Below are positions 8,647 to 41,342 of a stretch of 49,119 nt of DNA, piece after piece; position 1 is the first letter of the stretch; each line of letters opens with the position of its first letter. Origin of the DNA: a virus. The notes under the pieces are model-generated. The model was given only the letters and a program-made list of their open reading frames with translations, ran no database searches and had not been told where the DNA came from. The stretch spans positions 1-49,119 of IMG/VR virus record IMGVR_UViG_3300032268_000604. One strand, written 5' to 3'. The translations under genes and the position numbers were made by a program.

Positions 8647-9271
8647 TATGGCATTTAAATATCGCAATGAGCCAGACTTATTGCTTAACTTCAAACCAGT
8701 AATTATTGATAATGTTTTTACTCAACTGGAAATAGATCAGATCTATTCTCTTGTCAATGAAGACTATGCAACGGTAGAAAGAGAGTTTGGAAGAAAGACA
8801 TACCCCATATTTAGAGAAAAGGCTGCAAACATTTTTGAAAAGGTTGATGCCTACATGTCTGATATTTTTACTATACGCATGCAATGCCTAGAAGATCCAT
8901 TTATAATTAGATACAATATAGATTACGGGTTTAAGCCTAAGCTAGCTCCACACTTTGATAGAAGAACTACACACAAGGCTGTATTTGATGTACAACTCAA
9001 CGCTAACGAAGATTGGGGAATTGTAATAGATGGAGAGACCTACAATTTAAAGTTTAATCAAGGTCTTGTATTTATAGGAACTGATCAAATACATTGGCGT
9101 GAGTCTAAAATGTTAAAAGCGGGAAGCGAGATAGATCTCATTATATGGAATATAGACTTTGCTCCTAAGATTGAAATGAAAGATGATCATAAGCAAACCA
9201 TGCTAGTTAAAGAACTAGATATCATTGATAAAACTGGTATACATATGGAATTTGAACAATTGAATGATTAA
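8633..9271 (+). CDS. 2OG-Fe(II) oxygenase-like protein, paralogue of the preceding gene
   Basis: 212 residues. H107-x-D109 (PHFDRR) and H154 with R156 (QIHWRES) repeat the arrangement of the 8080 gene, as do the segments VFDVQLNANEDWGIVIDGETYNL and QIH. Pairwise likeness points to duplication. Start at 8633 has an AAGGA ribosome binding site 9 nt upstream. The last 35 residues are an extension not seen in the first copy. Confidence 0.65.
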   Translation: MHKPNMAFKYRNEPDLLLNFKPVIIDNVFTQLEIDQIYSLVNEDYATVEREFGRKTYPIFREKAANIFEKVDAYMSDIFTIRMQCLEDPFIIRYNIDYGFKPKLAPHFDRRTTHKAVFDVQLNANEDWGIVIDGETYNLKFNQGLVFIGTDQIHWRESKMLKAGSEIDLIIWNIDFAPKIEMKDDHKQTMLVKELDIIDKTGIHMEFEQLND

Positions 9272-9806
9272 ATTAGGTAAAGCTCCAGTATACGTTTATA
9301 GTAATTTTATATCAGATGAAAATTCAGATAAAGCAATACTGTTAATTCAAGAACAAGCAAAAGATCGTGGAAGAAACGGAATTGATCTTTCTAAAATTGC
9401 TGGATATAAAGTCTGTAGAGCTACTCCAGAGGTACATGACTTTCTTTGTGAGCAGGGAGAAAATGCATCTAAGATGCACAACCTAGATGTTGATCTATAT
9501 ACAAAGTCAGCTAATCTTGGACTATGGGAAACTGGATCAAGATGCTTGCCACATACAGATGATGCACTTGAATGGACAAGAATGTTGTCTCATAGCTCTG
9601 TAGTTTATTTAAATGATGATTATGAGGGCGGGAATATAGGATTTCCAGAATATGGGGAATATTACAGACCTAAAAAAGGAGACTGTATAGTATTCACAGC
9701 TTCAATAGTACATGAAGTACTCCCAATTACTGGAGGAACAAGATATACTGCTGCTTTCTGGCATACAGAAGATAAACAATATAAGGATAACTATGATAAG
9801 AGCTAG
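9264..9806 (+). CDS. 2OG-Fe(II) oxygenase, prolyl 4-hydroxylase type
   Basis: 180 residues with a complete P4H-type site: H97-x-D99 (LPHTDDA), H150 (IVHEVL) and R160 (GGTRYTAAFW) for the 2-oxoglutarate carboxylate. The signature VVYLNDDYEGGNIGFPE is typical of bacterial and phage prolyl/lysyl-hydroxylase relatives. Overlaps both neighbours, so it belongs to the same operon. Substrate unknown. Confidence 0.8.
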   Translation: MIKLGKAPVYVYSNFISDENSDKAILLIQEQAKDRGRNGIDLSKIAGYKVCRATPEVHDFLCEQGENASKMHNLDVDLYTKSANLGLWETGSRCLPHTDDALEWTRMLSHSSVVYLNDDYEGGNIGFPEYGEYYRPKKGDCIVFTASIVHEVLPITGGTRYTAAFWHTEDKQYKDNYDKS

Positions 9807-10998: not shown

Positions 10999-11508
10999 TT
11001 ATTTACCAAAAATAGTCATCATGTATCGTTTACCAGAAGTAACTTTGTTTACTTTGTAAACAGTGTCCCCTCTAAAAACAATTGCTGTATTTGGCTTCTG
11101 CTTAAATTTAATTCCATCATTTGGAAACTCAATTTCTCCGCCTTCATAGTCGTCGTTTAAAGATATAAGAACAAGCATGTCCCAAAACATTGGCGGATTT
11201 TTAATAAAATGTGGATAAATTGCATCTTGCCCATCTGGACTTGTGGAAAACTCATCAAGATATTTTACCATTACAACCCCATTTAATTCTGTAATTCCTT
11301 CTGGAAAAGAAACTGCCTTATAAAATTCACTGCTTAATGAATCTCTAAATTCTTCTGGCTCAATTCTTTTTGCCCTGTTGTCCCAAAATCCCATTGGGTC
11401 ATATCCCGTAATTGTATAGTCTTCTGGAGCCCTTGCATAGTCTAAAATCTCTTTATAGTTTTCTGGAGTAAAAACATTCTCAACTTCTAGATAAACATTA
11501 TTTGTCAT
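10999..11508 (-). CDS. Degenerate 2OG-oxygenase-like protein
   Basis: 169 residues with the P4H-type fold signature (LISLNDDYEGGEIEFP and a conserved SGKRYMMTIF), but the iron ligands are not kept: the HxD site reads H100-F-I (Asp missing) and the distal His position is Y151. R161 remains. Probably non-catalytic, perhaps a partner or regulator of the intact oxygenase encoded directly upstream, whose stop is one base before this start. Confidence 0.7.
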   Translation of the reverse strand: MTNNVYLEVENVFTPENYKEILDYARAPEDYTITGYDPMGFWDNRAKRIEPEEFRDSLSSEFYKAVSFPEGITELNGVVMVKYLDEFSTSPDGQDAIYPHFIKNPPMFWDMLVLISLNDDYEGGEIEFPNDGIKFKQKPNTAIVFRGDTVYKVNKVTSGKRYMMTIFGK

Positions 11509-11509
11509 T

Positions 11510-12088
11510 TTAGGGGATGTGCTTTCTTATCTTTGGATCTGCTGGATCTCCAGCAAAAAAAGTAATCATGTATCTTGTACCACTTCTAACAGCCTCTACT
11601 CTGTGAATACAGTAGTCATTAGCTTTATGCACAACTAAAGTTCCTGGCTTTGCTTTTAAAGTTACCCCAATATTTTCATAAGTAATTTCTCCGCCTTCAA
11701 AATCATCATTTAAGTATATAATAAATCCTAGTTGCCAAGGATCTTTTGTTCCATCATGATGTGGGTTTAAAGCATACTGTCCACCACGGTCTAAATCGCC
11801 AACCCTATATCTTTTAATAGATCTTGAATTACTAAGGCCTAGATGAGAATATTCTTCCCCAAGCATTTCCACAATTCTTTCTCTAATTTGAAACATAGAT
11901 TTAATGTTCTCTTGGTTTTTCATTCGCTTTAATTTTTCTGCCCAGTTTTCTTTAAGGTTTTCTGGTAATTCGTCTACGCTTGTAATCCAATTGTCTTCTA
12001 GGGCTTCTGATAAAAGGCTAGCAAGTTCTTGTTCAGAAAGAAAGTTTTCTACATAAAATATGTCTGGGTGAATATAAGTTTTTTCCAT
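11510..12088 (-). CDS. 2OG-Fe(II) oxygenase, prolyl 4-hydroxylase type
   Basis: 192 residues from the ATG at 12088, chosen because an extended -10 (TGCTATAAT) ends 6 nt upstream; an in-frame ATG at 12124 precedes that promoter. Full active site: H110-x-D112 (NPHHDG), H162 (CIHRVEAV) and R172 (SGTRYMITFF). GFIIYLNDDFEGGEITY is the family signature. Forms a two-gene unit with the degenerate homologue. Confidence 0.8.
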   Translation of the reverse strand: MEKTYIHPDIFYVENFLSEQELASLLSEALEDNWITSVDELPENLKENWAEKLKRMKNQENIKSMFQIRERIVEMLGEEYSHLGLSNSRSIKRYRVGDLDRGGQYALNPHHDGTKDPWQLGFIIYLNDDFEGGEITYENIGVTLKAKPGTLVVHKANDYCIHRVEAVRSGTRYMITFFAGDPADPKIRKHIP

Positions 12089-12094
12089 ATATTG

Positions 12095-12103
12095 ATTATA
12101 GCA
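12095..12103 (-). promoter_or_regulatory. Extended -10 promoter (TGcTATAAT), leaderless
   Basis: TGCTATAAT on minus, exactly 6 nt before the ATG at 12088, directly after the terminator hairpin. Confidence 0.75.
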
Positions 12104-12113
12104 TTTATATATA

Positions 12114-12179
12114 AAAAATGGCACCCAGTCAAAGGCGGATTCGACTGGGTGCCTTGTAGGGAGCGAACTCTACCTACAA
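12114..12179 (-). terminator. Tandem hairpins ending the P450 operon
   Basis: On minus, a first hairpin (arms 12173-12179 and 12154-12160, with an inner GAG-TTCG-CTC tetraloop) is followed at once by an 11-bp perfect hairpin (arms 12143-12153 and 12120-12130) and then ATTTTTT. The second is a good Rho-independent terminator; the first may protect the 3' end. They separate the P450 operon from the oxygenase pair. Confidence 0.75.
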
Positions 12180-22751: not shown

Positions 22752-25496
22752 ATGTCTATTAAAATATTTGATGGCTCAAGTTGGAAAAATTCAAAATTAG
22801 TTAAGCTTTATGACGGAGCCACATGGCAATTCGCTAAAAAAGCTTTTACTTGGAATGGATCTGCTTGGGTTGAAATATATAGTGGGCAATCTAATATTTC
22901 TTTACCAGAATTTACATGGTCTGCTGGATCATTTGGAGCTGGAGTAGGACAAACAGTAAGTGTTAGCAATGGAACTTGGGCTATACCTCCAGAATCATAT
23001 AAGTATCAGTGGCAAAAAGGATACAATGTCCAAGGCTCTACAACACAATGGGAAGACTTGCCAAATGGAACTTCAAACAGCTATCCTCTAACTGCAAGTC
23101 AAGTAGGATATTTTATTAGATGTAAAGTTATTGCAGTTAATGGGTCTTCAGATAGTGAGCCAGTATATGCATCAATTGATAGCTCACCACTACCTCCACA
23201 AAGAATAGCAAATGCAACAGCATTTGTTCAACAAGATGGCAGCGGATATATAAACGGATCAATAAGATTTTTTTGGGATGTTTCTGAAGGTGCAGATGGA
23301 TATAAGGTATGGTATCAAGGACCAGGAATTCCTTACACAGAATTAACAATTGTTGGAAAACAAAATAACTTATTTGATAAAGATTTTGGGTCTCCAGATT
23401 TAGCATTTTTAATTGGCAAAACAACAATGTCAATTTCTGTGCAGCCTTATAATGACACAAGCCAAGCTTTGTCTTGGTGGCAATGGGCAACAGCGCAGCC
23501 TAACTTTAAATTTACTGGTAATGGGCAAAGCAAAGATATTCTTGATTTACTACCTAAAAAGCCATCTGTAACTTCAACAATAGAAGCAATATCTCCATAC
23601 GTTTATGACACAGCTCTTAGAATTAATTGGAATGCTATTAATATTAATCAAACTCAATATGAAATATACTATGAATCATTTAATGATGAAGTAAATGAAA
23701 TGCAGTGGATTTGGTATCGTGGCCCAGTAATTTCATCAAGCAATTCTGCTTATATACAAACTGGTCCAGGCGTAGAAACTGGACCCTGGAAGGTTAGAGT
23801 TTATGGCACAGAAAGAGGATTTTCTGGATACATAGATGCAGTTGCTGGTAAAGCTACATCGGCAAATATTAAGCCAACAGGCGGAACAGCTTTTCTTTCA
23901 TCAAATGGTGCAGTTTATGCAGGTACTACATTATATGGATCTACATCTGGATGGACGCCGAACCCAACATCTACATCAGTATCAATTGTAGGTGTTGCAA
24001 ATAGAACACCATCGTCTGTATCAGATGGAGCAGTATTTGCAAGCGGAGTAAGTCCTTCATATACAGTAGACTCAGTAGATGTTGGAGCTGGTACACGTTT
24101 TAGAGCATTTGCTACAGCAACAAATAGCGCTGGAACTTCAGATCCAGTTGGATCAGCATCTGTTGCTATAGCTACGGTAAACCCACCAACATCTGTAGTA
24201 GTCCCAAATTTTGTTGGTCAATCAGGTGCCAGTAATGGAACAAACTATGTAATTTATCATGCGGCAGGAACTGGAACTTCAAACAATTCGATTGTTGGAA
24301 AAATTGCAAGTCAAAGCCCAGGAGCTGGAACATATTCAGTTCCTCAAAATCAGTTGCCATTAACCGTAAGCGTAAGCTCTTATGTATACGAAGAACCAGC
24401 AGTAACTTATGTTTATACTCCAAACTATGTTGGCACATATACTTCAGACGGTGTCAATGGAGATTGGAATTTAACAACAAATCAAAACACTGGAACTTCT
24501 GATCCAGCATTAGATGGAAAAATTGTTGCACAGTCACCTATAGCTGGCTCTGCATATGATACAAGATATATTTCATTGCCAGCATCTGTCAGCATTAATA
24601 GATATCAATATCAAGCACCAGGATACGCCATATATGTAAGATGTAATGGATTTAGCGGTGCATATAGCGGAGGATACGGATCACCATCAGGTGGAGCTGC
24701 AACAAGTTATATCTATGGGCAAACACAAAATCCTAATCTTAGTAGCGATCAAATTATAGCTATATTGGGAATACCAAATGCATGCTATGTTCCTCCATTT
24801 GGATTTACACCATTTGGGTTTACACCATTTGGGTTTACACCATTTGGGTTTACACCGTTTGGGTTTACACCATTTGGGTTTACACCGTTTTCGTTTACAC
24901 CAGTTAAATCAATTGGTGCAGATACACTTGTAGCATCAAAGGTCCCAGAAGGATTAACACTAGCGCACAACCTTTCAGTTGGAGACATTTTGTATTCTGC
25001 CGATATTGAAGGCTTAGATCTTTCATCTGGGCAAACATTGTCTGAATATTTAGGATCATGGTCAACAGAAAATCCTAGCATCAACACAAACCTTGAAACA
25101 ACAATTGTTTCATTGTCTGCAAGAATTGTTGACAAGGTTGTTGTAATCAATGGAAACAAATACTCTTACTCGCATTATATTCTAGTTAAAAGAGACAACG
25201 CTACTCAATTTGTAAAGGTAAATGAAGTGCTTGAGTCTGACATGGTGTTTAGCCCACTACTTGATTCATGGCAGCCAATAATAGACTTTAAAGTTCTTGA
25301 TGGTAAAGAGCTTGTAATATCAATTAACACCGAACCTTACGATGTATTTTTTACAGATAATGCTATTGTTCACGACTCTCATGAGTTTGATGAAAATACA
25401 CCTGGAGCAATAACATCTTCCGACCAGAATCTTTCACAAGCATTAGAAACAATTTATCAAGAATGGAAGCTTTCTCAGGAAAACCCTTCTACTTAA
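22752..25496 (+). CDS. Large adhesin with PASTA-like and FGFTP repeats and a Hint-like domain
   Basis: 914 residues. The N-terminus has short repeats (VKLYDGATWQ, FTWNGSAWVEIY), then several Ig/fibronectin-like domains. Two PASTA-like units follow (VPNFVGQ...GKIASQSPGAGT and YTPNYVGT...GKIVAQSPIAGS, about 475-620). Residues 683-717 are seven FGFTP-type pentapeptides. The last about 195 residues resemble a Hint (intein/hedgehog) fold: LSVGDILYSADIEG, SHYILVKRD, WQPIIDF, EPYDVFFTDNAIVHDS. The usual N-terminal Cys and final HN are missing, so splicing is unlikely. Likely a receptor-binding or processed tail protein. Confidence 0.7.
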   Translation: MSIKIFDGSSWKNSKLVKLYDGATWQFAKKAFTWNGSAWVEIYSGQSNISLPEFTWSAGSFGAGVGQTVSVSNGTWAIPPESYKYQWQKGYNVQGSTTQWEDLPNGTSNSYPLTASQVGYFIRCKVIAVNGSSDSEPVYASIDSSPLPPQRIANATAFVQQDGSGYINGSIRFFWDVSEGADGYKVWYQGPGIPYTELTIVGKQNNLFDKDFGSPDLAFLIGKTTMSISVQPYNDTSQALSWWQWATAQPNFKFTGNGQSKDILDLLPKKPSVTSTIEAISPYVYDTALRINWNAININQTQYEIYYESFNDEVNEMQWIWYRGPVISSSNSAYIQTGPGVETGPWKVRVYGTERGFSGYIDAVAGKATSANIKPTGGTAFLSSNGAVYAGTTLYGSTSGWTPNPTSTSVSIVGVANRTPSSVSDGAVFASGVSPSYTVDSVDVGAGTRFRAFATATNSAGTSDPVGSASVAIATVNPPTSVVVPNFVGQSGASNGTNYVIYHAAGTGTSNNSIVGKIASQSPGAGTYSVPQNQLPLTVSVSSYVYEEPAVTYVYTPNYVGTYTSDGVNGDWNLTTNQNTGTSDPALDGKIVAQSPIAGSAYDTRYISLPASVSINRYQYQAPGYAIYVRCNGFSGAYSGGYGSPSGGAATSYIYGQTQNPNLSSDQIIAILGIPNACYVPPFGFTPFGFTPFGFTPFGFTPFGFTPFGFTPFSFTPVKSIGADTLVASKVPEGLTLAHNLSVGDILYSADIEGLDLSSGQTLSEYLGSWSTENPSINTNLETTIVSLSARIVDKVVVINGNKYSYSHYILVKRDNATQFVKVNEVLESDMVFSPLLDSWQPIIDFKVLDGKELVISINTEPYDVFFTDNAIVHDSHEFDENTPGAITSSDQNLSQALETIYQEWKLSQENPST
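24798..24902 (+). repeat. FGFTP repeat, seven 15-bp units
   Basis: Six FGFTP and one FSFTP pentapeptide, encoded by nearly identical 15-bp units (TTTGGGTTTACACCA type). The low third-base variation suggests recent expansion. Confidence 0.9.
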
Positions 25497-29578: not shown

Positions 29579-30958
29579 ATGGCAATTATTAAAAGATTCG
29601 GACAAAGATCACAGGCAGCCAATGACTTCCTTGAGCCTAAACAGCCGTCAATTACATCAGCAACAGATATTGGAACAAACCGTCCATACAATAATGGTGC
29701 AGTAACTGTATCCTTTAGCTTACCAGGTGATTCGCCTGCTGCTACTTCTTACACAGTGACGTCGTCTCCAGGTGGCTTTACAGCCACTGGAGCTTCTTCT
29801 CCATTAACAGTACAAGGACTTTTGTCTGCTACTGCTTACACATTTACAGTACGGGCATCAAATGCTTCTGGAACATCAGTTGCTTCTACAGCATCTGGCT
29901 CAGTCACAGCAACAACAGTACCAAATACTCCAGGTGCACCAAGCGCTTCATCTCCTTCAGCAGGAGCAGATTCAGTATCATGGTCAGCTCCAGCAAATGG
30001 TGGTAAAGCAATTACTAACTATCGTTGGGCTGCATCAGATGGAAAGGCTGGAGATACAGCTGGAACATCTGTAAGCGTTGGTCAAGAAATGGGTTCAGCT
30101 CAGACATATACAGTTTATGCAACAAACGCCAATGGTAACTCAGGAACATCTGGATCTTCTGGAAACGTCACAACAGCATTTAGCTTTGTTCCGTTTGGAT
30201 TTTCTCCCTTTGGTTTCACTCCGTTCGGGTTTACACCATTCGGATTTACACCATTCGGCTTCACACCATTCGGCTTCACACCATTCGGATTTACTCCGTT
30301 CGGGTTTACACCATTCGGATTTACTCCGTTTGGGTTTACGCCAGTTAAATCAATTGGTGCAGATACATTAATTAGCTCAAAGGTACCAGAGGGTCTCGTG
30401 CTTGCACACAACCTTTCAGTTGGAGATGTATTATACTCAGCTGATATCGAAGGTTTAGACTTATCAACAGATGTGCCAATTGCAGAATATTTTGCTGGAT
30501 GGTCACAAGAAAACCCAGTAATAAACTCTGCAGTTGAAACAACAATTACAGCTTTATCCGCACACATTGTTGACAGAGTAATTGTTATTAATGGAAATAA
30601 ATATTCTATATCTCACTACATACTTGTCAAGAGAGACGGGCTTGCAAAATTCATTAACGTTACTGATGTACTAGATTCAGATCTAGTCTACTCTCCGACA
30701 TTCCAAGACTGGCAACCAATTATTGAACTAAGAGAGTCAGAAGGAAAAGAGTTAGTTATTACAATTAACACTGAGCCTCATGACGTATTCTTTACAGATA
30801 ACGCACTCGTACACGATTCACAGCCACTAGATTTAAATGCTCCAGGAGTTATAACCTCCCCAGAACAAAATCTATCTACTTCGCTAGAAGAGCTGTATCA
30901 GCAATGGAAACTTTCTCAGCAGGAAAACCCTGTTGATCCAAACAATCCACCAGCTTAA
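29579..30958 (+). CDS. Adhesin with fibronectin-like domains, FGFTP repeats and Hint-like domain
   Basis: 459 residues. Two fibronectin type III-like domains (about 40-195), then residues 206-255 with one FGFSP and nine FGFTP units, then a Hint-like C-terminal domain closely related to that of the 22752 gene (VKSIGADTLISSKVPEG, LSVGDVLYSADIEGLDL, EPHDVFFTDNALVHDS). As there, the catalytic Cys and terminal Asn are absent. Likely a receptor-binding tail protein. Repeat number differs between the two copies (7 and 10). Confidence 0.7.
   Translation: MAIIKRFGQRSQAANDFLEPKQPSITSATDIGTNRPYNNGAVTVSFSLPGDSPAATSYTVTSSPGGFTATGASSPLTVQGLLSATAYTFTVRASNASGTSVASTASGSVTATTVPNTPGAPSASSPSAGADSVSWSAPANGGKAITNYRWAASDGKAGDTAGTSVSVGQEMGSAQTYTVYATNANGNSGTSGSSGNVTTAFSFVPFGFSPFGFTPFGFTPFGFTPFGFTPFGFTPFGFTPFGFTPFGFTPFGFTPVKSIGADTLISSKVPEGLVLAHNLSVGDVLYSADIEGLDLSTDVPIAEYFAGWSQENPVINSAVETTITALSAHIVDRVIVINGNKYSISHYILVKRDGLAKFINVTDVLDSDLVYSPTFQDWQPIIELRESEGKELVITINTEPHDVFFTDNALVHDSQPLDLNAPGVITSPEQNLSTSLEELYQQWKLSQQENPVDPNNPPA
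30194..30343 (+). repeat. FGFTP repeat, ten 15-bp units
   Basis: Ten tandem pentapeptide codings, one FGFSP and nine FGFTP. Codons vary more than in the first array (TTT/TTC, GGA/GGC/GGG/GGT), so this array is older or has been kept by selection on protein. Confidence 0.9.
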
Positions 30959-30961
30959 TAA

Positions 30962-31597
30962 ATGCTAGACAATATCAAACAGATATTGGACTACGGTTTC
31001 AAAAGGGTGATCTGGTATAAAAGCCAGATCATACCTGTTTTTAGGCGCTATCCTAAATACCTAAAGGGATCCTGGATACAATGGACAATGCTAAACGATA
31101 GATATGGTGCTAGAGCAATAGAATGCGTATACGTAAACTCCGATCATCCAGAAGGAACAGCAGTATTCTCTAATTTTATTAATAACGATTATCCTGCTTC
31201 TTGGGCAACTATTATAATGGGGCAGTACGATAAAAAAAATAATTATCATACAGCCTTTGGAGATAGATTTTATACCTCTATAAATCATAGGAGGAAAAGA
31301 ATTAACTCCTCGCTTGCCATATTGGGGTATTCAATATTTCTGCTTTATTATAATGTAATGGTAAAACAAGGCGGAGCACATACCCAGGCTGGATTTGATT
31401 TACAAATGAAAATGACTAGGCTAATGACATTTATGAAAAGAGTAGATATATCAAAAGAAGAAGAACTTTCTTATATTATGGGTGGCGTAAAACCACAAGT
31501 TTTGATACAATCAGATAATGATGCATACAAAGACCCAATAAGACCAGCTGGGTGGCATTCTATGAGTATTTGGGATAAAGATGATAAAAGAGATTAA
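30962..31597 (+). CDS. Unrecognised protein at head of the modification operon
   Basis: 211 residues, starting 3 nt after the adhesin stop. Basic and aromatic, with a hydrophobic stretch near 115-130 (SLAILGYSIFLLYYNVMV). WIQWTMLNDRYGARAIECVYVNSD and CVYVNS regions are not from a family I know. A conserved-looking end (GGVKPQVLIQSDNDAYKDPIRPAGWHSMSIWDKDD) may hold acidic ligands. Its place in the operon suggests a role with the oxygenases. Confidence 0.6.
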   Translation: MLDNIKQILDYGFKRVIWYKSQIIPVFRRYPKYLKGSWIQWTMLNDRYGARAIECVYVNSDHPEGTAVFSNFINNDYPASWATIIMGQYDKKNNYHTAFGDRFYTSINHRRKRINSSLAILGYSIFLLYYNVMVKQGGAHTQAGFDLQMKMTRLMTFMKRVDISKEEELSYIMGGVKPQVLIQSDNDAYKDPIRPAGWHSMSIWDKDDKRD

Positions 31598-32150
31598 AGG
31601 CGTAGATAATTTTGCCATGTTTAGCGGGTATAGATCTATGGTCGATTCTATGTACGAAGAAACAGTAGACATATCTAAAGGGTTTAATAAAAATATAAAA
31701 GATAAAGCAAAAAGGGTTTCTCTGGTAGACAGCAAAACATTTAATTTTTTTGGAATGTATAGCAAAGAAATATACACTTTGTATCATGAAATATGCCTTG
31801 CGGCAAAAGATTTGTTTTTAGAAAAGAAAATTAATTTTGAAAGATCTTATCCCTACCTTTATGCAAGAGTTATGGATAACGAACAGATTCCACCTTATGT
31901 AGATTTAAACTTCGGCCCTAACTTTAAAACAGTTTTTTTTGGCTTTTATGTAATTAGTTCTAAAAATGATTTTATTTTAATTGACGGCAATAAAACTAAT
32001 TTAGTTCCAGGCAGTTTAATATTACTAGATCACAACACAAGAGTTCAATTTAATGATATAAGTGAAGAGCTTGTTTTAATAGAACTGCATGTTTCCCCTT
32101 TAGAGTATTTGCACAGACAATATTATCAGAAATGGATACCCTTAGTATGA
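31581..32150 (+). CDS. Jelly-roll protein related to the operon's oxygenases, ligands lacking
   Basis: 189 residues. The C-terminal half (VPGSLILLDHNTRVQFNDISEELVLIELHVSP) looks like the end of a double-stranded beta helix, and the last residues (YYQKWIPLV) match the C-termini of the oxygenases at 34314 and 35794 (HWIPLL, SWVPLG). No clear HxD/H/H iron triad is present, so it may be a non-catalytic relative. Confidence 0.5.
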   Translation: MIKEIKGVDNFAMFSGYRSMVDSMYEETVDISKGFNKNIKDKAKRVSLVDSKTFNFFGMYSKEIYTLYHEICLAAKDLFLEKKINFERSYPYLYARVMDNEQIPPYVDLNFGPNFKTVFFGFYVISSKNDFILIDGNKTNLVPGSLILLDHNTRVQFNDISEELVLIELHVSPLEYLHRQYYQKWIPLV

Positions 32151-32863
32151 GTAAAATAGAATTTATTCCAAAATACAGATTTCTTGCTGGGGTGTTTCCA
32201 AAACCAGAATCAATTCAAAAGCACATACCAGAATGGTGGAAGAAACAAGAAAGCTATTTAAATAACGACAACGGTGTTTATAACGGCAACATGCTTCTTA
32301 CTGTAAAAAAATGTCAGGCAGTATTTGACGCAATGGCTGCAGGATATTATTTATTTTGCCCAATGGATTTAAATATTGACGCTACTGGAGAAAGAGTAAA
32401 GTTTGACGTTGCAAATGATGTTATGGAATTTCAAAAATTTCTTTTGGCCCATCACCTTAAAGAGCAGATATCCGAGTACCCAATACCTCCGTACTTCCAT
32501 AGCGATGTTTTAAGAATTCACCCAATGTGGCTTGCAAAAACGGAACCAGGTTACAGCTCATTGTTTATTGCACCTATACACGCAGACCACATACCAATAA
32601 GAGCAATACCAGGTCTTATAGATACCGACGAATATCCTTCTGACGGATACCTTTCTTTCTTTGTTGAAAAAGGTTTTAAAGGGGTAATCAAGCAGGGCAC
32701 ACCACTGTTGCAGGTTATACCTTTTAAAAGAGATGATTGGGAAAGCGAAATCAATAATGATAAAAAGTCTGACGAGATGAATAGGGCAAGTCAGCTTTCG
32801 GTCAGATCCGTATTTCAAAATGGATACCGTTTAAAAAAGTGGTCAAAGAAAACCTTTAAGTGA
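32147..32863 (+). CDS. DUF6065-like protein, copy 1
   Basis: 238 residues from the ATG at 32147, which overlaps the previous stop as ATGA. Pattern fits DUF6065: HIPEWWKK near the start, CQAVFDAMAAGY, W-L-A-K-T-E-P-G-Y-S-S-L-F, GLIDTDEY, then KQGTPLLQVIPFKRDDWE. Function unknown; the family is often near 2OG oxygenase and glycan genes in phages (from memory). A paralogue lies at 33563. Confidence 0.7.
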   Translation: MSKIEFIPKYRFLAGVFPKPESIQKHIPEWWKKQESYLNNDNGVYNGNMLLTVKKCQAVFDAMAAGYYLFCPMDLNIDATGERVKFDVANDVMEFQKFLLAHHLKEQISEYPIPPYFHSDVLRIHPMWLAKTEPGYSSLFIAPIHADHIPIRAIPGLIDTDEYPSDGYLSFFVEKGFKGVIKQGTPLLQVIPFKRDDWESEINNDKKSDEMNRASQLSVRSVFQNGYRLKKWSKKTFK

Positions 32864-33570
32864 AGCCAGTTAAAAACATATTAAAGACTCCATATGAAGC
32901 AGAGTCTTGGAGCAAAATGGGCACTATGACTTTTGCAGAAATAATGAATTATTCTAATATGTTTCCTAAGTGGGCTGCCTGGAATGAAGTAAAATTTAGT
33001 CGTGAATACTTTGATAAAATATTAAAGCCAGTAAATCTATATTCTTCTTTTTTTTCTATTAGACCAAAAGTTATAAAGACGTCAGATACTTCTGCCACCA
33101 TAGAGTATTATAATTACGCAGACATATTAATTCAGATTGCTGACCCACCGCTTGGGCACCTTGGTATATTTAAATCACAACCAATCAATGAGATTTTTTA
33201 TTCGGTTGATAAGGTTTGGCAAAGACAATTCTACCCATCTCCCAATGTATATGATACTTCAAGCATGGATATTATTTCTGATAGGTGCTTTAAATTATAT
33301 ACTCCTTGGGTTATAGATGAGGATATTGATTTTTTTGTCACCTCAACAATAGAAAACCCATCAATTAAAATTATGGACTTTAGGGGCTCTTTTACAAAAT
33401 CCAACGAAAATGATAGAATAAAAGAACCGTGCTTTATTGATTTTTATTTTACTAAGTCTAAAAGGCATATGGAAACAGAAACTGTTGGAATAATAGAAAG
33501 GGGTTCATATATGTATGAAATGCAAATAAATGCATCTTCCGATTTTATTGACAGGCTTTGCAATGAGTAA
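32860..33570 (+). CDS. Unrecognised protein between DUF6065 paralogues
   Basis: 236 residues starting with GTG in a GTGA overlap. Beta-rich with aromatic residues (FYPSPNVYDTSSMDIISDRCFKLYTPWVIDEDIDFFVTSTIENP). No motif recognised. It is held between the two DUF6065 genes with overlaps on both sides, so the three products may act together. Confidence 0.6.
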   Translation: MKPVKNILKTPYEAESWSKMGTMTFAEIMNYSNMFPKWAAWNEVKFSREYFDKILKPVNLYSSFFSIRPKVIKTSDTSATIEYYNYADILIQIADPPLGHLGIFKSQPINEIFYSVDKVWQRQFYPSPNVYDTSSMDIISDRCFKLYTPWVIDEDIDFFVTSTIENPSIKIMDFRGSFTKSNENDRIKEPCFIDFYFTKSKRHMETETVGIIERGSYMYEMQINASSDFIDRLCNE

Positions 33571-34339
33571 AGTAGTAAAGTTTACCCCAGCAACGTTTGG
33601 AAGTAATTTTGATCCGAAGAGTAATAATTATCTTTCAGAACCAGAGCCCTCTATAAAGTTTTTACCAGATTGGTATAGAAGACTTTCTCGTTTTCAAAAG
33701 TCTAACAACATATCTAAACTTCACCCAGTAAATGATCGTGGAACTGACGGAAGTGCGGCTGGAACTAAATTATGTATGCCCTTTTTTGATACCTTGGCTG
33801 CTGGCTACATGTACAAGCTTGACTATGACGTGCATGTTGATTTAGATAAAGACGGATTCCCTACAATAACATGGGACGGGGAAGCCATGATAATAGATAA
33901 AAGAAATATGATTGACGTCCCAGTTCCTACAGCCCATCATCCTCTACATTTTGGATGGAAGGTAAATTGGTACTGTGAGACCCCACCAGGATACTCAATG
34001 CTAATAACTCACCCAATGAATAGGCATGACTTGCCATTCACGACTTTATCTGGGATAATTGATACAGATAAATGGCACACTCCAGTATTTACTGCCTTTT
34101 TTTTAAAAAGGAATTTTATTGGAACAATACCAAAAGGAACCCCTATCTTTCAAATGATACCAATCAAAAGAGATGATTGGGATTTGGAAATAGATTACTC
34201 CGAAAAGAGTATAGAAGAAAACAAGATTAAAGAAGAACGAAGAAGAATATCAATATTTGCATATTATAAAAATTATATATGGCAAAGGAAAAATTACAGA
34301 AAAGGAATATCTGATGGACTACAATCCGATGATGCTTAA
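33563..34339 (+). CDS. DUF6065-like protein, copy 2
   Basis: 258 residues from the ATG at 33563 (MSKVVKF, like the MSKIEF of copy 1). Shares FLPDWYRR, CMPFFDTLAAGY, WYCETPPGYSMLITHPMNRHDLPF, GIIDTDKW and PKGTPIFQMIPIKRDDWDLEI. The order and sharing of motifs show duplication and divergence. Function unknown. Confidence 0.7.
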   Translation: MSKVVKFTPATFGSNFDPKSNNYLSEPEPSIKFLPDWYRRLSRFQKSNNISKLHPVNDRGTDGSAAGTKLCMPFFDTLAAGYMYKLDYDVHVDLDKDGFPTITWDGEAMIIDKRNMIDVPVPTAHHPLHFGWKVNWYCETPPGYSMLITHPMNRHDLPFTTLSGIIDTDKWHTPVFTAFFLKRNFIGTIPKGTPIFQMIPIKRDDWDLEIDYSEKSIEENKIKEERRRISIFAYYKNYIWQRKNYRKGISDGLQSDDA

Positions 34340-34964
34340 TAAGCCAAGCGGCAAAGAACATAAATTTTTTGAAAGATATCTGGATAACGATTTGTCAGAC
34401 CTAGCGACATTCTTGCAAAATCAATATGCGGATATGGAAAATCTAAGCTTAAAGGGAATCACTCCAGTAAATCAAAAGGATGCTTGGCTCTCCTCTTCCA
34501 GCGTTTCAACAATTAAATGGAGAGAATATAATGTTTTTCAGTTTTACCATGACGGCATTCACAAGCTATATAAATCACTTTCTGATATTATAAAAGAAGC
34601 GTGTGAATATTACGGAGTAGATTTTGAAGAGCAGAAGTATATGGTACAAGGTTGGTTTAACATTAATTACAATCATACTGGTAAGCTTGATTGGCATGAT
34701 CACGGCGGCCCTTATGCCCCCTATTTTCACGGTTACTATTCAGTAAACGCAGAGCCTTCAATTACCTACTATAATGTTTTTGGTACAGAAACTGCAAACC
34801 ATAATAAAAATAATAGAATGATTGTTTCTGAAATGGGTCACCCACATGCAATGGGAGACTGGGATTGGGAAGGTCCTAGAGTAACAATAGCTTATGACGT
34901 AATGCCTTTAAAGAGCTTAATTGAAGCAAAGGCACCACAGCAGCACTGGATACCTCTCCTATAA
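34314..34964 (+). CDS. 2OG-Fe(II) oxygenase-like protein (HDH type), copy 1
   Basis: 216 residues from the ATG at 34314, giving exactly the length of its paralogue at 35794. Motifs: LDWHDHGG (H128, H130), HGYYSVNAEPSITYY, H176/H178 (GHPHAMG) and R189 (GPRVTIAYDV). The H-x-H arrangement is like the 2OG-FeII_Oxy_5 group rather than prolyl hydroxylases. Likely hydroxylates a protein, nucleotide or sugar; substrate unknown. Separated from its paralogue by the glycosyltransferase-like gene. Confidence 0.7.
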   Translation: MDYNPMMLNKPSGKEHKFFERYLDNDLSDLATFLQNQYADMENLSLKGITPVNQKDAWLSSSSVSTIKWREYNVFQFYHDGIHKLYKSLSDIIKEACEYYGVDFEEQKYMVQGWFNINYNHTGKLDWHDHGGPYAPYFHGYYSVNAEPSITYYNVFGTETANHNKNNRMIVSEMGHPHAMGDWDWEGPRVTIAYDVMPLKSLIEAKAPQQHWIPLL

Positions 34965-35794
34965 TGAAAAAAAGTATTGGCATATTTGTATACAGCTTTC
35001 AGAATAAAGATCTGATTAATAGTATTACCGATATTGTTAATAAATCTAGTGGTTTGCATGACTTGTCGTTTTACATTATAGATCAAAATAATGTTGAGCG
35101 ATCAAGATTGTTTGACATAACTGCTGGTCACGTAAAAATAATATATAAGCATACAAAGTGGGATTCAATAAAAAGCCCAATCGCACACAAATTTGATGGA
35201 TCAAGAATACTTGCTTCAGAATACTTTATGCAGTGCGGAGACGGAGTTGTTATGTCTAAAGACTGGGATGTGTCTTTAGTAGATAAAATTGAATCAGTAA
35301 GATATAAAAATCAAACAATTATTTCTGGAAATCATAAATTAGAATTTAAAAACAAAAATTTGTTTATGATAGAAAAAATAAAGTCTGTTTCGGAAGATTA
35401 TTCTAATGTTGATATGATAGATAGAGACTTTATATTTTGTTTAAGTTCTGACATAAAGCGTGTTGGCTACCCAGTGGAGCTTAAATATTATGGAGAAGAA
35501 GAAAAGATGTCTATAATGATAAATCAAAAACACTACCACTTACTGTGCTGCCCAACAAAGTTGTTTCAAAACAACACCCTTCCTCTTGAAGATAATGGCT
35601 ATGTCCCATTTTCATTAACTCACAAATACAACAAGTTTATAGAAAACAATGAAAGAAATATCATTGGTTTGTTTGGGATAGAAGTAATACCATTTCCATT
35701 CGAAGATGATGATATTGAGTACACAATTGAAAAATCAGAAACCGACAAAATTGGCGGAGAGAGATATCTAAACAAGACAAGGATAATAAATTAA
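34964..35794 (+). CDS. GlcNAc-transferase-like (GT60-like) glycosyltransferase
   Basis: 276 residues. SIGIFVYSFQNKD at the N-terminus and SPIAHKFDGSRILASEYFMQCGDGVVMSKDWDVSL (71-105) follow the pattern of the GlcNAc family (PF11397), which includes the Skp1 hydroxyproline GlcNAc-transferase: an A/G-R segment, E-Y-F/Y, an Asp metal-binding loop and W-D. The usual LQIDSH is here MQCGDG, so metal binding needs testing. It sits between two oxygenases with overlapping ends, as expected for enzymes of a hydroxylate-then-glycosylate pathway. Confidence 0.6.
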   Translation: MKKSIGIFVYSFQNKDLINSITDIVNKSSGLHDLSFYIIDQNNVERSRLFDITAGHVKIIYKHTKWDSIKSPIAHKFDGSRILASEYFMQCGDGVVMSKDWDVSLVDKIESVRYKNQTIISGNHKLEFKNKNLFMIEKIKSVSEDYSNVDMIDRDFIFCLSSDIKRVGYPVELKYYGEEEKMSIMINQKHYHLLCCPTKLFQNNTLPLEDNGYVPFSLTHKYNKFIENNERNIIGLFGIEVIPFPFEDDDIEYTIEKSETDKIGGERYLNKTRIIN

Positions 35795-36444
35795 TGGATA
35801 ATACTAAGCCGCATAAATTTTTTGACGCTTACCTAAATAATGATTTAGATAGCTTAAAGGAATATTTGCTTAATAAAAAAGAAGAGCTAAAGAACGGTCA
35901 AGTAGCTGGTGTAGGGAAAGATGTACTTGCTACAGCACCAAAAGATTATTTTAATAGCTATAATCCACAGCGCATAGACAACTTCTACAACATCTTTCAG
36001 TTTTACAATGAAGAAATTTATAGCCTGTATAAAACTTTAAGGTCTTTGACAATTGAAGCCTGTGAATATTATGGGCTTGATTTTGAAAAAGAAAAGTTTA
36101 TGTTGCATGGATGGTTTAATTCCGAAGGAAGCAAAAACCATGTTGACCTAGACAACAAAGATTCATATCACGACCATTCCGAGGGCAAAGGGTTCCCTTA
36201 TTTTCATGGATACTATTGCGTAAATGCAGAACCAAGCTCCACCTATTATAAAATACATGGTGATGCTGCCTTTGAAAATGTTAATAAAAACAATAGAGCA
36301 ATTTTATCGGAAACTGGACACCCCCATAGCATTGGTCTTTGGCCATTTGAAGAAGATAGAATAACTATAGCCTATGACGTTACACCGCTTAGATTTATTT
36401 CAGCTGGTGGGTACTACGATCAAAGTTGGGTGCCACTAGGATGA
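35794..36444 (+). CDS. 2OG-Fe(II) oxygenase-like protein (HDH type), copy 2
   Basis: 216 residues. H126 and H128 (YHDHSEG), HGYYCVNAEPSSTYY, H175/H177 (GHPHSIG) and R189 (EDRITIAYDV). Paralogue of the 34314 gene, with an added short loop after the HDH motif. Ends by ATGA overlap with the next hydroxylase gene. Confidence 0.7.
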   Translation: MDNTKPHKFFDAYLNNDLDSLKEYLLNKKEELKNGQVAGVGKDVLATAPKDYFNSYNPQRIDNFYNIFQFYNEEIYSLYKTLRSLTIEACEYYGLDFEKEKFMLHGWFNSEGSKNHVDLDNKDSYHDHSEGKGFPYFHGYYCVNAEPSSTYYKIHGDAAFENVNKNNRAILSETGHPHSIGLWPFEEDRITIAYDVTPLRFISAGGYYDQSWVPLG

Positions 36445-36983
36445 AAATAAAAATAGTTGAAAACTTTATTGAAGACTACGACGCACAAACTTTAATATCA
36501 GAAATCACAAACCCTTCTTCTGTAAATAACTATCCAGATTATTATGCTGACAGAAATGGTGGAACTGCTTTCCCGTACAATAATACGGTTATGAGTATAT
36601 TAAGAAAGTATGCCAAGAAAGCTAATTTAATTCAGAAAGAATTTTTTGAAACAGATAAAGACGTGATAATTACAAAATCTTTTGGTTCAGGGTGGGGCCC
36701 AGGAATGAGTGGCAATCCTCACATAGATGCAATAGAAAAGGAGCCTTTTATAGAATATAGCTCTGTAATATACCTCAATGATGGATACACTGGGGGAGAC
36801 ATATATTTTCCAAAACAAAATTTTTCACACAGTCCAAAGAAATTTTCTGCATTATTTTTCCCAGGAAACGACTATGAATATTTGCACGGTGTTTCAAAAG
36901 TTGAAACTGGCAATAGATATACGGCACTCTTTATGCAATCAACGCAAAAAGAGTTTATGGATCCAGATTTTGAGGGATGCTAA
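36441..36983 (+). CDS. 2OG-Fe(II) oxygenase, prolyl 4-hydroxylase type
   Basis: 180 residues from the ATG at 36441 (ATGA overlap). Full site: H94-x-D96 (NPHIDAIE), H149 (YLHGVSKV) and R159 (TGNRYTALF), with YLNDGYTGGDIYFP. Same type as the 9264, 11510 and 36983 products. Confidence 0.8.
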   Translation: MKIKIVENFIEDYDAQTLISEITNPSSVNNYPDYYADRNGGTAFPYNNTVMSILRKYAKKANLIQKEFFETDKDVIITKSFGSGWGPGMSGNPHIDAIEKEPFIEYSSVIYLNDGYTGGDIYFPKQNFSHSPKKFSALFFPGNDYEYLHGVSKVETGNRYTALFMQSTQKEFMDPDFEGC

Positions 36984-37636
36984 TGGAGTTTAAACAGCTT
37001 GCGCTTGGCGTAGTTCAGTACAAAGGAATTATCAAGGACCCACAACTTATTATAGATAAAATTGAAGAGTTGGAAATAAAAAGACAACAAGACTCATCGT
37101 ATCAATCTCAATTTGTAAAAGAGTGGACAGCTTGGGATTATGATCATGGTGGTCCAGAAAAAACTGTTTTCTGCTGGCAAAAGTTTCTGCCAAAGCCAGA
37201 AGATATATCTCCTTCGGATAAATTTTACAACGAACAACACTTCATATCTTCAGAGCTATTTGGATCTCTTGAAACTGCACTTAATCACTACTTTACCATC
37301 TATCCTTACGCAGAAAAAAATATTAAAGCTAGAGAAAAAACAATGCATGTTTTGAAATATAAAGAAAGTGGTTTCTTGCCAGCGCACTCAGATCATGGCA
37401 TTAGCAGCCGAGTCTTATCTGCTTTGTTATATTTAAATGATGATTACGAAGGTGGAACATTAAGATTTCCTCATCTTAATCTTGAGCTGAAGCCAGAAGC
37501 TGGAACTATTTTATTTTTCCCATCTAACTTTGTTTATGTTCATGAAGTAGATGCTGTTACAAAAGGAACAAGATATTCATTGCCTAATTGGTATCATAAT
37601 AGAAAAAATCCATACTATTCGGATGGTTCAGAATGA
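36983..37636 (+). CDS. 2OG-Fe(II) oxygenase, prolyl 4-hydroxylase type
   Basis: 217 residues from the ATG at 36983 (TAATG overlap). H135-x-D137 (PAHSDHG), H187 (YVHEVDAV) and R197 (GTRYSLPNW), with LLYLNDDYEGGTLRFP. The N-terminal about 120 residues are a longer lead domain than in the other copies. Followed by the SDR gene with a 4-nt overlap. Confidence 0.8.
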   Translation: MEFKQLALGVVQYKGIIKDPQLIIDKIEELEIKRQQDSSYQSQFVKEWTAWDYDHGGPEKTVFCWQKFLPKPEDISPSDKFYNEQHFISSELFGSLETALNHYFTIYPYAEKNIKAREKTMHVLKYKESGFLPAHSDHGISSRVLSALLYLNDDYEGGTLRFPHLNLELKPEAGTILFFPSNFVYVHEVDAVTKGTRYSLPNWYHNRKNPYYSDGSE

Positions 37637-38313
37637 TAATTATAACTGGATCTGGATCTGGAATGGGCAAATGTATTGCTCAAAGATTACATGCTAATGG
37701 AGAAAAGGTATTAGGAATATCTTTATATAAGCCGCAGTATGAGCCAGAGTTTGATACAATTTTGGCTGATGTAAGAGATATAAACTCATTGCAGCAGATA
37801 TCAAAAGATTTGTTGGGTAGTGGTGAACAAGTAACGGCATTGATTAACTGTGCTGGAATATATGAGCCAACCCCAGCTGGTTTCTTTTTTGAAGACAAAG
37901 CGTATAATATTATAAATACAAACTTAAATGGTATATTTAATTCATGCCAAGCATTCCTACCAAATATGAATCCAGAGGTTCACACCTCTATAATCAATAT
38001 ATCCAGCTTGGCTGCACATATGGCTAACGAGGCAACTATGTACTCTGCTTCAAAAGCAGGGGTTGAGTCGTTTACAAAAGGGTTTGCAAAACAACTATCT
38101 AACACTAAGATTAGAGCAAACTGCATAGCTCCTGGTCCAATAATGACAGATCTAACTAGAAAACATTTATTGACCTCAGATAAATCTGCAGTTACAAATC
38201 AAATAATAGAAAAATTCTTTGAGCTTGACGACGTAGCAAATCTTGTTGAGCTATTGATGGACAGCAGGTCTGATAGCCTAACGGGACAAGTTCTTCATGT
38301 AGGCGGAATGTAG
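37633..38313 (+). CDS. Short-chain dehydrogenase/reductase (SDR)
   Basis: 226 residues. TGSGSGMG at 5-12 binds NAD(P), NCAG near 72 stabilises the fold, and the active site is Ser (NISSLA, about 124), Tyr137 and Lys141 (YSASK). Resembles FabG-type reductases; 226 residues is slightly short. It could oxidise or reduce a sugar nucleotide, a hydroxylated product or a lipid. Last gene of the modification operon. Confidence 0.85.
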   Translation: MIIITGSGSGMGKCIAQRLHANGEKVLGISLYKPQYEPEFDTILADVRDINSLQQISKDLLGSGEQVTALINCAGIYEPTPAGFFFEDKAYNIINTNLNGIFNSCQAFLPNMNPEVHTSIINISSLAAHMANEATMYSASKAGVESFTKGFAKQLSNTKIRANCIAPGPIMTDLTRKHLLTSDKSAVTNQIIEKFFELDDVANLVELLMDSRSDSLTGQVLHVGGM

Positions 38314-39530: not shown

Positions 39531-41342
39531 ATGTCATACAAATATGCTATTTTAAAAGATAAACCAATTGCTTTTTATCAATTAGATGAAGTTGCATCAA
39601 GTGATGTTTCTTCTTACGACATACTTAGAACATTTTTCCCAACGTATCAACACTTAAAAGATTCTGGCATATCTTATGCTGCTATTAGCGGTTTACCTGT
39701 ATATGATTTTTCTGGAAACTTCAATGACGGATTTGCAACGGAAGCTTCAGATAAAAAAGTTATGCCATTAATTTCTGGTGGACAAAGAGGAACTCAGGTG
39801 CTTCCAGAAACTAATATATATTATCCAGTAAGTGGAATTGCTTCAAGGGTGTACCCAGACAATGTATTTAGTATAGAGGCGTGGGTATTAATAAATGATT
39901 TTACTTCATCCAGAGTTAATTTGGTCTCAGACCCAACAAACAACATAGGTATTTTTTATGAAAACGGCAACATTGTATTTTCTGTTCAGGGACAAGAGGT
40001 TTCTTACACATACAGCCAGTCAGAGGCCATGTACATAGTTGGAACATTCTCACCAGGGAATATAGCTCTATACATTAACTCTGAGTTAAAGAGTATATTA
40101 AATTTAAATAGCTTTAAATTTACAAATGAAAACGTTTCATTTTTATCTGGGTCCTCAGCAATTGAATTTTTTATAGACGGAGTTGCTTTTTATAAGTCAG
40201 AGTTAAATCAAAAACAAATTGGAACTCATTACAATATTGGAATAAAAAATACAAATATAGCAAGCATAGTGTACCCAGATGGCGGATATTTATTTTCAAT
40301 GAATTCAAGCAAGATACGACCCACATTCCAATACTCATATCCAAAAGCAAAAAAATGGTCAGATGTAGCAAATGAAAACATTTCAATATCACCAGATCAG
40401 TCTTATTTGTATTTTGAAAAAACAGATGCTCAGGAGTCTAAAGAGTTTATTTTTACCGATTACATCGTTGTTCCAAACTATCTTGGCATTGAAACTTCAC
40501 AAATTTATTGGGATGGAGACGTAAAAGGAATTTCCATAAAGGTAAGCTTAGATAATCAAAATTGGACTGAGTGCATAAACGGCGCTTCAATACCATATTT
40601 TAATAAAAGCGATAATCAATTTCAAGATGTATTATTTATAAAAGTTACAATGTCAACTACAGACTCTAGAAAATTTTTGCCTATATTAAAATCTATAGAC
40701 TTGGTATTTTTTGAAGATCAATCATTCTATGGAGATAACTCTAGCTTTAAAATTATTTCAGACTACGAATACTGTATGCCTAAAGAAAATAGCCGTCCTT
40801 TATCTTTTAACAAAAATAATGGATTGTTCATGTTTAATGGCAAAGGGTTTGGAATAGATCATGACATTAATATTCGGTCTGTTGAAATGCTATTTACACC
40901 AGATGGGTCGGCTTCAGTTCTTTTGTCTACAAATAATGAATCCTTTAGTTGGAATTCGGCGGGGGTTATTAGTAAAGCTGGAATAGATTCAGTATATGTA
41001 AATGGAGAAAATGTAACTAACGCAGTCAATATATCTGAATATTTTATACCTGGAATACAGCACCACGTAATAATAAATTTAAACCAAGACGTAAGCACCA
41101 ACATTAGATTTAATCAGAATCAATCAGGGTCTTCTTCGGGTGGAAGAAATCTGTATAACAACTTGGCCATATACAAGCTGCCATTTACCCAGGAGCTAGC
41201 ATCTATGCATTATTTAAATTATATTGGAGTTGACTCGCTAGTAATTCAAGACACCACTATGTCATTAGCAGAAAAGAATACTGGCACGGACAATTTGGCA
41301 TATTTCTTTGTGTCTGAAGACCGTGTTGCGACAAATATATAA
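39531..41342 (+). CDS. LamG/concanavalin-like virion protein
   Basis: 603 residues. Residues about 110-230 (VFSIEAWVLINDFTSSRVNLVSD...GNIALYINSELKSILN...IEFFIDGVAFYKSELNQKQIGTHYNIG) are a typical LamG fold that binds glycans or proteins. A second similar region is near 430-560 (VEMLFTPDGSASVLLSTNN...RNLYNNLAIYKLPFTQE). Probably a tail or capsid decoration adhesin. It starts 3 nt after the collagen-like fibre. Confidence 0.75.
   Translation: MSYKYAILKDKPIAFYQLDEVASSDVSSYDILRTFFPTYQHLKDSGISYAAISGLPVYDFSGNFNDGFATEASDKKVMPLISGGQRGTQVLPETNIYYPVSGIASRVYPDNVFSIEAWVLINDFTSSRVNLVSDPTNNIGIFYENGNIVFSVQGQEVSYTYSQSEAMYIVGTFSPGNIALYINSELKSILNLNSFKFTNENVSFLSGSSAIEFFIDGVAFYKSELNQKQIGTHYNIGIKNTNIASIVYPDGGYLFSMNSSKIRPTFQYSYPKAKKWSDVANENISISPDQSYLYFEKTDAQESKEFIFTDYIVVPNYLGIETSQIYWDGDVKGISIKVSLDNQNWTECINGASIPYFNKSDNQFQDVLFIKVTMSTTDSRKFLPILKSIDLVFFEDQSFYGDNSSFKIISDYEYCMPKENSRPLSFNKNNGLFMFNGKGFGIDHDINIRSVEMLFTPDGSASVLLSTNNESFSWNSAGVISKAGIDSVYVNGENVTNAVNISEYFIPGIQHHVIINLNQDVSTNIRFNQNQSGSSSGGRNLYNNLAIYKLPFTQELASMHYLNYIGVDSLVIQDTTMSLAEKNTGTDNLAYFFVSEDRVATNI

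Follow-up and report, generated by a model that had tools for sequence, protein, structure and literature searches.

Can a tailed phage hydroxylate and then glycosylate the repeats of its own adhesin? This question is raised by an operon in the IMG/VR virus record IMGVR_UViG_3300032268_000604, whose 49119 bases form the window analysed here and the frame for all coordinates. Eleven plus-strand open reading frames (ORFs) fill positions 30962-38313, with successive overlaps of 17, 19, 4, 11, 26, 1, 1, 4, 7 and 4 bases. An adhesin gene with FGFTP repeats stops 3 bases upstream of the first of them (30962). The genes from this adhesin through an SDR oxidoreductase form one coupled unit, followed by a 32-base gap and then a collagen-like fibre gene (38346). 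In our judgement the chances are about even that this cassette serves the post-translational modification of the adhesin directly upstream, whose FGFTP repeats would be hydroxylated and then glycosylated. Gene content, folds, conserved catalytic residues and the conserved pairing are observed, and from them we infer the substrate, the residue, the order of the steps, the sugar, the helper roles and the effect. The genes of the coupled unit are as follows (2OG, 2-oxoglutarate; GT, glycosyltransferase).

29579-30958, plus strand: adhesin, proposed substrate; FN3 (fn3 E 4.5e-8), 11 FxFxP units (9 FGFTP) and a degenerate Hint-like C-terminal domain
30962-31597, plus strand: p30962, found in long-form operon loci only; no family match above cut-off
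31581-32150, plus strand: p31581, degenerate paralogue of ox34314/ox35794, by alignment
32132-32863, plus strand: DUF6065-like protein A
32860-33570, plus strand: p32860, probable divergent DUF6065 relative
33560-34339, plus strand: DUF6065-like protein B
34314-34964, plus strand: ox34314, predicted 2OG-oxygenase-fold enzyme
34964-35794, plus strand: predicted GT-A glycosyltransferase, GT60/GT27-like
35794-36444, plus strand: ox35794, ox34314 paralogue, by alignment
36441-36983, plus strand: ox36441, prolyl-hydroxylase-like 2OG-Fe(II) oxygenase
36977-37636, plus strand: ox36977, prolyl-4-hydroxylase-like 2OG-Fe(II) oxygenase
37633-38313, plus strand: classical SDR oxidoreductase (PF00106 E 2e-38)

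Association of the operon with FGFTP adhesins

Viral contigs were scanned with the GT, and 28 loci were obtained. As far as the contigs reach, 27 of them hold the long gene set, at GT identities down to 39%. The order is adhesin, p30962, p31581, DUF6065, p32860, DUF6065, ox34314, (ox35794, before or after the GT), GT, ox36441, ox36977, SDR and a downstream protein, p39531. The exception was L032 (GT identity 29%), where DUF6065, GT, an oxygenase, ox36441 and ox36977 are followed by other genes. Since the gene order is kept in diverged phages, the operon is not a chance arrangement, and the tight, overlapping eleven-gene operon described in the initial annotation was confirmed by both ORF layout and gene order. 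The SDR, correctly recognized at that time, is an accessory member and was not found in L056, L064, L065, L093 and L099. In L008 (10819-11529), and also in L009, a gene that looks by eye like an RsmI-type tetrapyrrole methylase lies between the GT and ox36441.

An adhesin of the same family stands upstream of the operon in all 24 relatives whose contig reaches the adhesin position. Furthermore, an independent scan of viral contigs with a degenerate DNA pattern for FGFTPFGFTP returned 86 stretches at 80 loci. Among the 62 FGFTP genes with at least 1.5 kb downstream, a gene of an operon family starts within 300 bp in 47 and within 3 kb in 55. The linkage to FGFTP adhesins that had been noted from the window thus recurred by two routes. 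The partners of the FGFTP genes were not always the same: some have the full operon, others DUF6065 only (8 loci) or the ox34314 type only, ox35794 copies included (15 loci), and still others DUF6065 plus an oxygenase, or an ox36977 relative. Common descent of a single fixed block would hardly account for such differing sets, and the repeat is tied more to DUF6065 and the ox34314 oxygenases than to the GT. In 44 whole FGFTP records, a selection weighted towards those lacking the full operon, DUF6065 was present in 22, the ox34314 family in 29 and at least one of the two in 35; the nine records with neither are 8-47 kb long and probably fragments. Bacterial and archaeal genomes (one per species, 84,980 species) gave a single FGFTP match, again an adhesin and then DUF6065. 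This match, L120, is a 3.2-kb contig of a Chitinophagaceae metagenome-assembled genome with a ribonucleotide-reductase-like fragment, the FGFTP adhesin and DUF6065, and it is probably a misbinned phage contig.

Adhesins and collagen-like fibre

As for the repeat itself, 381 of 563 FxFxP units are exactly FGFTP and all four Gly and Thr codons are used, so the repeat is conserved as amino acids while its codons vary. Two further structural genes of the window are of interest here.

22752-25496, plus strand: second adhesin with a PASTA-like region, an FGFTP array and the same Hint-like C-terminal domain; homologues in L074 and L089
38346-39527, plus strand: collagen-like fibre (PF01391) with an S74 chaperone domain (PF13884)

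The second adhesin is a possible second substrate. FGFTP arrays run directly into Hint-like domains in both adhesins of the window and in L046, L059 and L034. In relatives the domain is near-canonical (C..EDTL ... VHNK at the protein end), and in the window it is degenerate (SIGADTL ... VHDS); for the adhesin at 29579 it was recognized by eye and by comparison with L059 (Intein_splicing E 0.01 and Hint_2 E 0.013, neither reaching its cut-off). These adhesins may cleave or ligate themselves at the boundary between repeat and Hint-like domain, with the domain processing the C terminus. Most FGFTP adhesins end in this way (a loose C-terminal pattern matched in 26 of the 29 loci with the full operon), which would fit partners acting on the Hint-like domain, or on its cleavage or ligation product, and not on the repeats. 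However, L065, L069 and L099 have no Hint-like domain, the repeats end the protein, and the enzymes are kept, and we regard this alternative as improbable.

The collagen-like fibre was the other substrate suggested in the initial annotation, as in the collagen modification of mimivirus. It lies 32 bp downstream of the operon and contains G-X-Y runs. However, among full-operon loci no relatives other than the three nearest (L003-L005) and the L056 lineage have a collagen-like gene directly after the operon, and most relatives keep the enzymes with no adjoining fibre of this kind. For the full operon, co-occurrence held for the FGFTP fibres and failed for the collagen-like one, and collagen as the substrate is disfavoured; we consider it quite improbable.

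Oxygenases and DUF6065-like proteins

A profile of 15 ox36977 family members, compared with the PDB, matched prolyl 4-hydroxylases first (5iax E 4e-7, 3itq E 5e-7, and 5hv0 within the same range), followed by prolyl 3-hydroxylase 1 and PiuC. PF13640 was matched with E 3e-16, and the HxD...H triad and the 2OG-binding Arg are present in 13-14 of the 15 sequences. For ox36441, the PHROG matches are 2OG oxygenases, PF13640 was found in 4 of 19 relatives, and the best PDB match of the profile was again prolyl 3-hydroxylase 1 (8k0e, E 2.5e-6), with prolyl 4-hydroxylase also matched; its HxD..H..R set is invariant in 19/19 sequences. By these profiles both are prolyl-hydroxylase-like 2OG-Fe(II) oxygenases, with hydroxylation of peptidyl-proline as their putative reaction. 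A weak similarity of the ox36977 profile to TET-like dioxygenases (E 8e-4) could point instead to hypermodification of DNA or nucleotides by TET/JBP-like oxygenases and a base glycosyltransferase. However, the profile matches prolyl hydroxylases more strongly, the operon sits in the tail region and is coupled to an adhesin, and Pfam and PHROG searches gave no base-modification synthase among the operon genes, which makes this explanation highly improbable.

ox34314 and ox35794 gave no meaningful Pfam match. The AlphaFold2 model of ox34314 (predicted local distance difference test, pLDDT, 91.7; predicted template modelling score, pTM, 0.90) places this group in the double-stranded beta-helix fold of 2OG enzymes. 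Its top Foldseek matches are the uncharacterised proteins 3bvc and 2rg4, with HygX, the HIF prolyl hydroxylase PHD2, a Dictyostelium PHD and a Pseudomonas prolyl 4-hydroxylase among the further ones. H128, H130, H139, H178 and R189 of ox34314 are invariant (36/36), and in all 36 sequences the predicted metal ligands read H-[DE]-H ... H ... R, that is, HxH rather than HxD/E. Since the ligands look like HxH...H and the canonical set is HxD...H, catalytic activity of ox34314 and ox35794 is likely, not certain. Four 2OG oxygenases had been proposed; two of them stand by profile and two by predicted fold, the latter pair lacking the canonical HxD. The protein p31581, described earlier as a jelly-roll relative, is by hhalign (96.5%, E 8e-10) a decayed paralogue of ox34314/ox35794 and has lost their invariant His residues. 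Comparison of ox34314 or DUF6065 with PF13640-type enzymes by hhalign detected no relation.

The two proteins at 32132 and 33560 scored 22.9 and 24.0 bits against Pfam DUF6065 (PF19541), below its cut-off of 26.6 bits. They matched phrog_7084, the family that phage DUF6065 proteins match, with E 4.5e-40 and 1e-37, and the alignment with 33560 has invariant columns. We thus call them DUF6065-like and not members of DUF6065 by the Pfam cut-off; as such, the predicted pair of paralogues was upheld. p32860 is a probable third relative (hhalign 65%, E 6e-5). HF2-like haloviruses also carry DUF6065 relatives; in Halorubrum phage HF2 (L013) one lies at 8866-9750, a few kb from VP1, a virion protein for which a ConA-like domain is predicted.

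The oxygenases could also belong to a generic auxiliary metabolism and tune host 2-oxoglutarate or iron levels. This role has already been proposed for cyanophages, and the functions of phage 2OG oxygenases are otherwise stated as not specifically investigated (PMC9602691). A fixed adhesin neighbour, a degenerate paralogue, DUF6065 and a GT would all be left unexplained, and we find such a role hardly probable for this cassette.

Glycosyltransferase

The AlphaFold2 model of the protein at 34964 (pLDDT 89.7, pTM 0.86) has a GT-A fold. The nearest PDB structures by Foldseek are polypeptide GalNAc-transferases (GalNAc-T2, E 1e-10, template modelling (TM) score about 0.6), and among viral models in BFVD several annotated 'Glycosyltransferase, GlcNAc' were matched (E 2e-13 to 5e-11, TM about 0.6). 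Polypeptide GalNAc-transferases are protein O-glycosylation enzymes. Because the PDB is rich in their entries and the other GT-A enzymes SpsA and B4GALNT1 score almost equally, these matches can be taken only as a suggestion of the acceptor class. The window protein itself matched neither PF11397 nor another glycosyltransferase family; PF11397 matched 11 of 21 relatives, one of them above cut-off (24.2 vs 21 bits). Conserved residues of the family are G177-E178-x-E180 (21/21) and D93 (17/21). The DXH metal motif, a feature of GT60/GT27, is absent from the 21 relatives, which mostly have GD[GDN] at positions 92-94. No ricin-type lectin domain was found in the 276-residue protein, as the GT-A domain fills it and leaves no further domain. 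Searches of PDB sequences with profiles of the GT, ox34314 and DUF6065 returned nothing useful. The resemblance to GT60 claimed in the initial annotation is thus retained for the predicted fold, which is like that of phage proteins annotated 'Glycosyltransferase, GlcNAc', and is weaker than stated there in sequence: PF11397 matched about half of the relatives, all but one below cut-off, and not the protein itself, and the DXH motif is absent. The enzyme probably acts like a protein O-glycosyltransferase without strict GT60 membership.

A second phage group and the host-glycan alternative

When viral contigs were scanned with DUF6065 and ox34314, another phage group emerged, in which the order is p32860-DUF6065-(DUF6065)-(ox34314)-GT-ox36441-ox36977. 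Its neighbours include SGNH-like proteins, endolysin-like genes and a NodU/CmcH-type carbamoyltransferase (PF16861 E 1e-54, PF02543 E 6e-39), and in some cases (L163) a further GT60-like enzyme that carries a DAH motif. SGNH-like proteins and the NodU-type carbamoyltransferase occur beside the core in L134 (8961-12205), L163, L183, L248 and L032, and these phages perhaps have a carbamoylated glycan pathway. A Thr/Pro-rich PA14-like protein is often upstream of the core. Almost all relatives of this protein are Thr/Pro-rich with or without the cassette, and a full-length GT match was found in only 10 of 38 such records. Because the PA14 family is Thr/Pro-rich in general, the link is uninformative and neither supports nor excludes the PA14 protein as a substrate; Thr-Pro richness as a denominator common to both phage groups was dropped.

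The company of SGNH-like proteins, carbamoyltransferase, second GT and endolysin genes suggests that the cassette might build or remodel a host-envelope glycan or sugar conjugate, for example in a superinfection block or a receptor change, with the adhesin adjacent as part of a shared host-interaction module. An SDR together with a GT would suit sugar chemistry. However, this leaves unexplained the FGFTP genes paired with DUF6065 or ox34314 alone and no adjacent GT; moreover, the GT fold is nearest polypeptide glycosyltransferases and the oxygenases are nearest protein prolyl hydroxylases. We consider a host glycan an unlikely target, though one deserving real weight.

Several observations weigh against modification of the adhesin. 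The core DUF6065-GT-ox36441-ox36977 is not exclusive to FGFTP phages: at 63 of 80 DUF6065 loci the flanks covered (~6 kb) lack an FxFxP adhesin, some of these contigs ending early. The initial annotation had tied the operon to phages with proline-repeat fibres, and this is contradicted in part, for the core set. For about a quarter of the FGFTP genes no partner starts within 300 bp, and 74 of 83 FGFTP loci fall into one similarity cluster, so the pairing counts are non-independent. The repeat Thr is kept also where the GT is not adjacent. To our knowledge, no function of DUF6065 is on record. The idea that the conserved Thr marks the GT acceptor was dropped, as Thr/Ser is equally common without an adjacent GT.

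Proposed mechanism

If the adhesin is modified as we propose, an adhesin with an FGFTP array would be made from the same gene block as its enzymes. The 2OG-Fe(II) oxygenases would hydroxylate repeat residues, most likely proline, while the DUF6065 proteins and p31581, the decayed paralogue, may be substrate-binding or helper subunits. The GT-A enzyme would then put a sugar on the new hydroxyl or on the Thr of FTP, and the SDR, where present, would further alter the product. The virion adhesin would end up with a repeat stalk coated in sugar, and stalk stiffness, protease resistance or receptor binding might be affected. The full version of this proposal, a dedicated phage assembly line for hydroxylation and then O-glycosylation of the FGFTP stalk in which DUF6065 and inactive paralogues of the oxygenases serve as new accessory factors, is tentative, and we place it somewhat short of an even chance.

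Other genes of the window

The operon is followed, beyond the collagen-like fibre, by one more gene kept in the long set.

39531-41342, plus strand: p39531, downstream protein homologous to Streptomyces phage gp23, with a ConA-like lectin domain; flanks the cassette and is not part of it

p39531 has homologues in Stanwilliamsviridae phages of Streptomyces, which makes an actinobacterial host probable. Elsewhere, the window contains a complete cytochrome P450 gene (12769-14172, minus strand; PF00067 E 1e-71) and a second oxygenase-like set at 8080-9806 (plus strand) and 10999-12124 (minus strand). PF13640 was matched in this set at 9264 (E 4e-10) and within 11510-12124, below threshold at 10999, and 8080 and 8633 appear related by eye only. 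The ORFs at 10321 (plus strand) and 14442 (minus strand) look sulfotransferase-like by eye. The Rfam search had no match, and promoter and terminator scans found nothing above chance.

Comparison with known systems

Small 2OG oxygenases are numerous in aquatic phages such as cyanophages and pelagiphages (PMC9602691, PMC9599517). No substrate is known there, whereas here a neighbouring substrate is strongly indicated. In Synechococcus phage ACG-2014b (L119, 5303-6896) a weak relative of ox34314 (E 3e-3) has a PF13640-type gene on either side, and structural and short tail fibre genes follow downstream. The pairing of enzymes with an adhesin gives a concrete, testable substrate for phage 2OG oxygenases and a testable role for DUF6065; if true, it would be the first defined substrate of these oxygenases. 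In the open-access literature searched, we found no phage reported to hydroxylate an adhesin of its own, subscription papers being mostly outside the search. An earlier study of phage collagens stated that bacteria and viruses lack the prolyl hydroxylases needed (PMC3368898), and the cassette would be a phage counter-example, though probably not for collagen.

Among glycosyltransferases, the GT27 polypeptide GalNAc-transferases offer the nearest solved fold (GalNAc-T2), and the phage enzyme differs in having only about 10% identity to it and neither lectin domain nor DXH. In Dictyostelium, a proline of Skp1 is hydroxylated and then receives GlcNAc (PhyA and Gnt1; PMC3515798). A prolyl-hydroxylase-type enzyme and a GT60-like glycosyltransferase are common to both cases. 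However, the target there is the single Pro143 of a eukaryotic ubiquitin ligase subunit, while the phage GT has no DXH and phage hydroxyproline is putative. The mycobacteriophages Che8, Corndog and Myrna glycosylate their own capsid and tail proteins (PMC12363180), a likeness in that actinobacteriophage glycosyltransferases act on their own virion proteins. Capsid and tail tube are the targets there and no hydroxylases are described (PMC12363180), whereas we propose a repeat adhesin as the target.

Mimivirus encodes collagens together with collagen-modifying enzymes, one of which was shown to glucosylate galactosylhydroxylysine on collagen (PMC9546862). In that set (R699, hydroxylase/glycosyltransferase), as proposed here, virus enzymes add sugar to hydroxylated residues in a repeat-bearing structural protein of a type that the virus also encodes (PMC9546862). 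Mimivirus is a giant eukaryotic virus that modifies collagen hydroxylysine, whereas here we have a tailed phage with FGFTP repeats, several small 2OG enzymes, a GT60/GT27-like GT and DUF6065. The cassette would extend viral hydroxylation and glycosylation of fibre proteins from giant viruses to phages.

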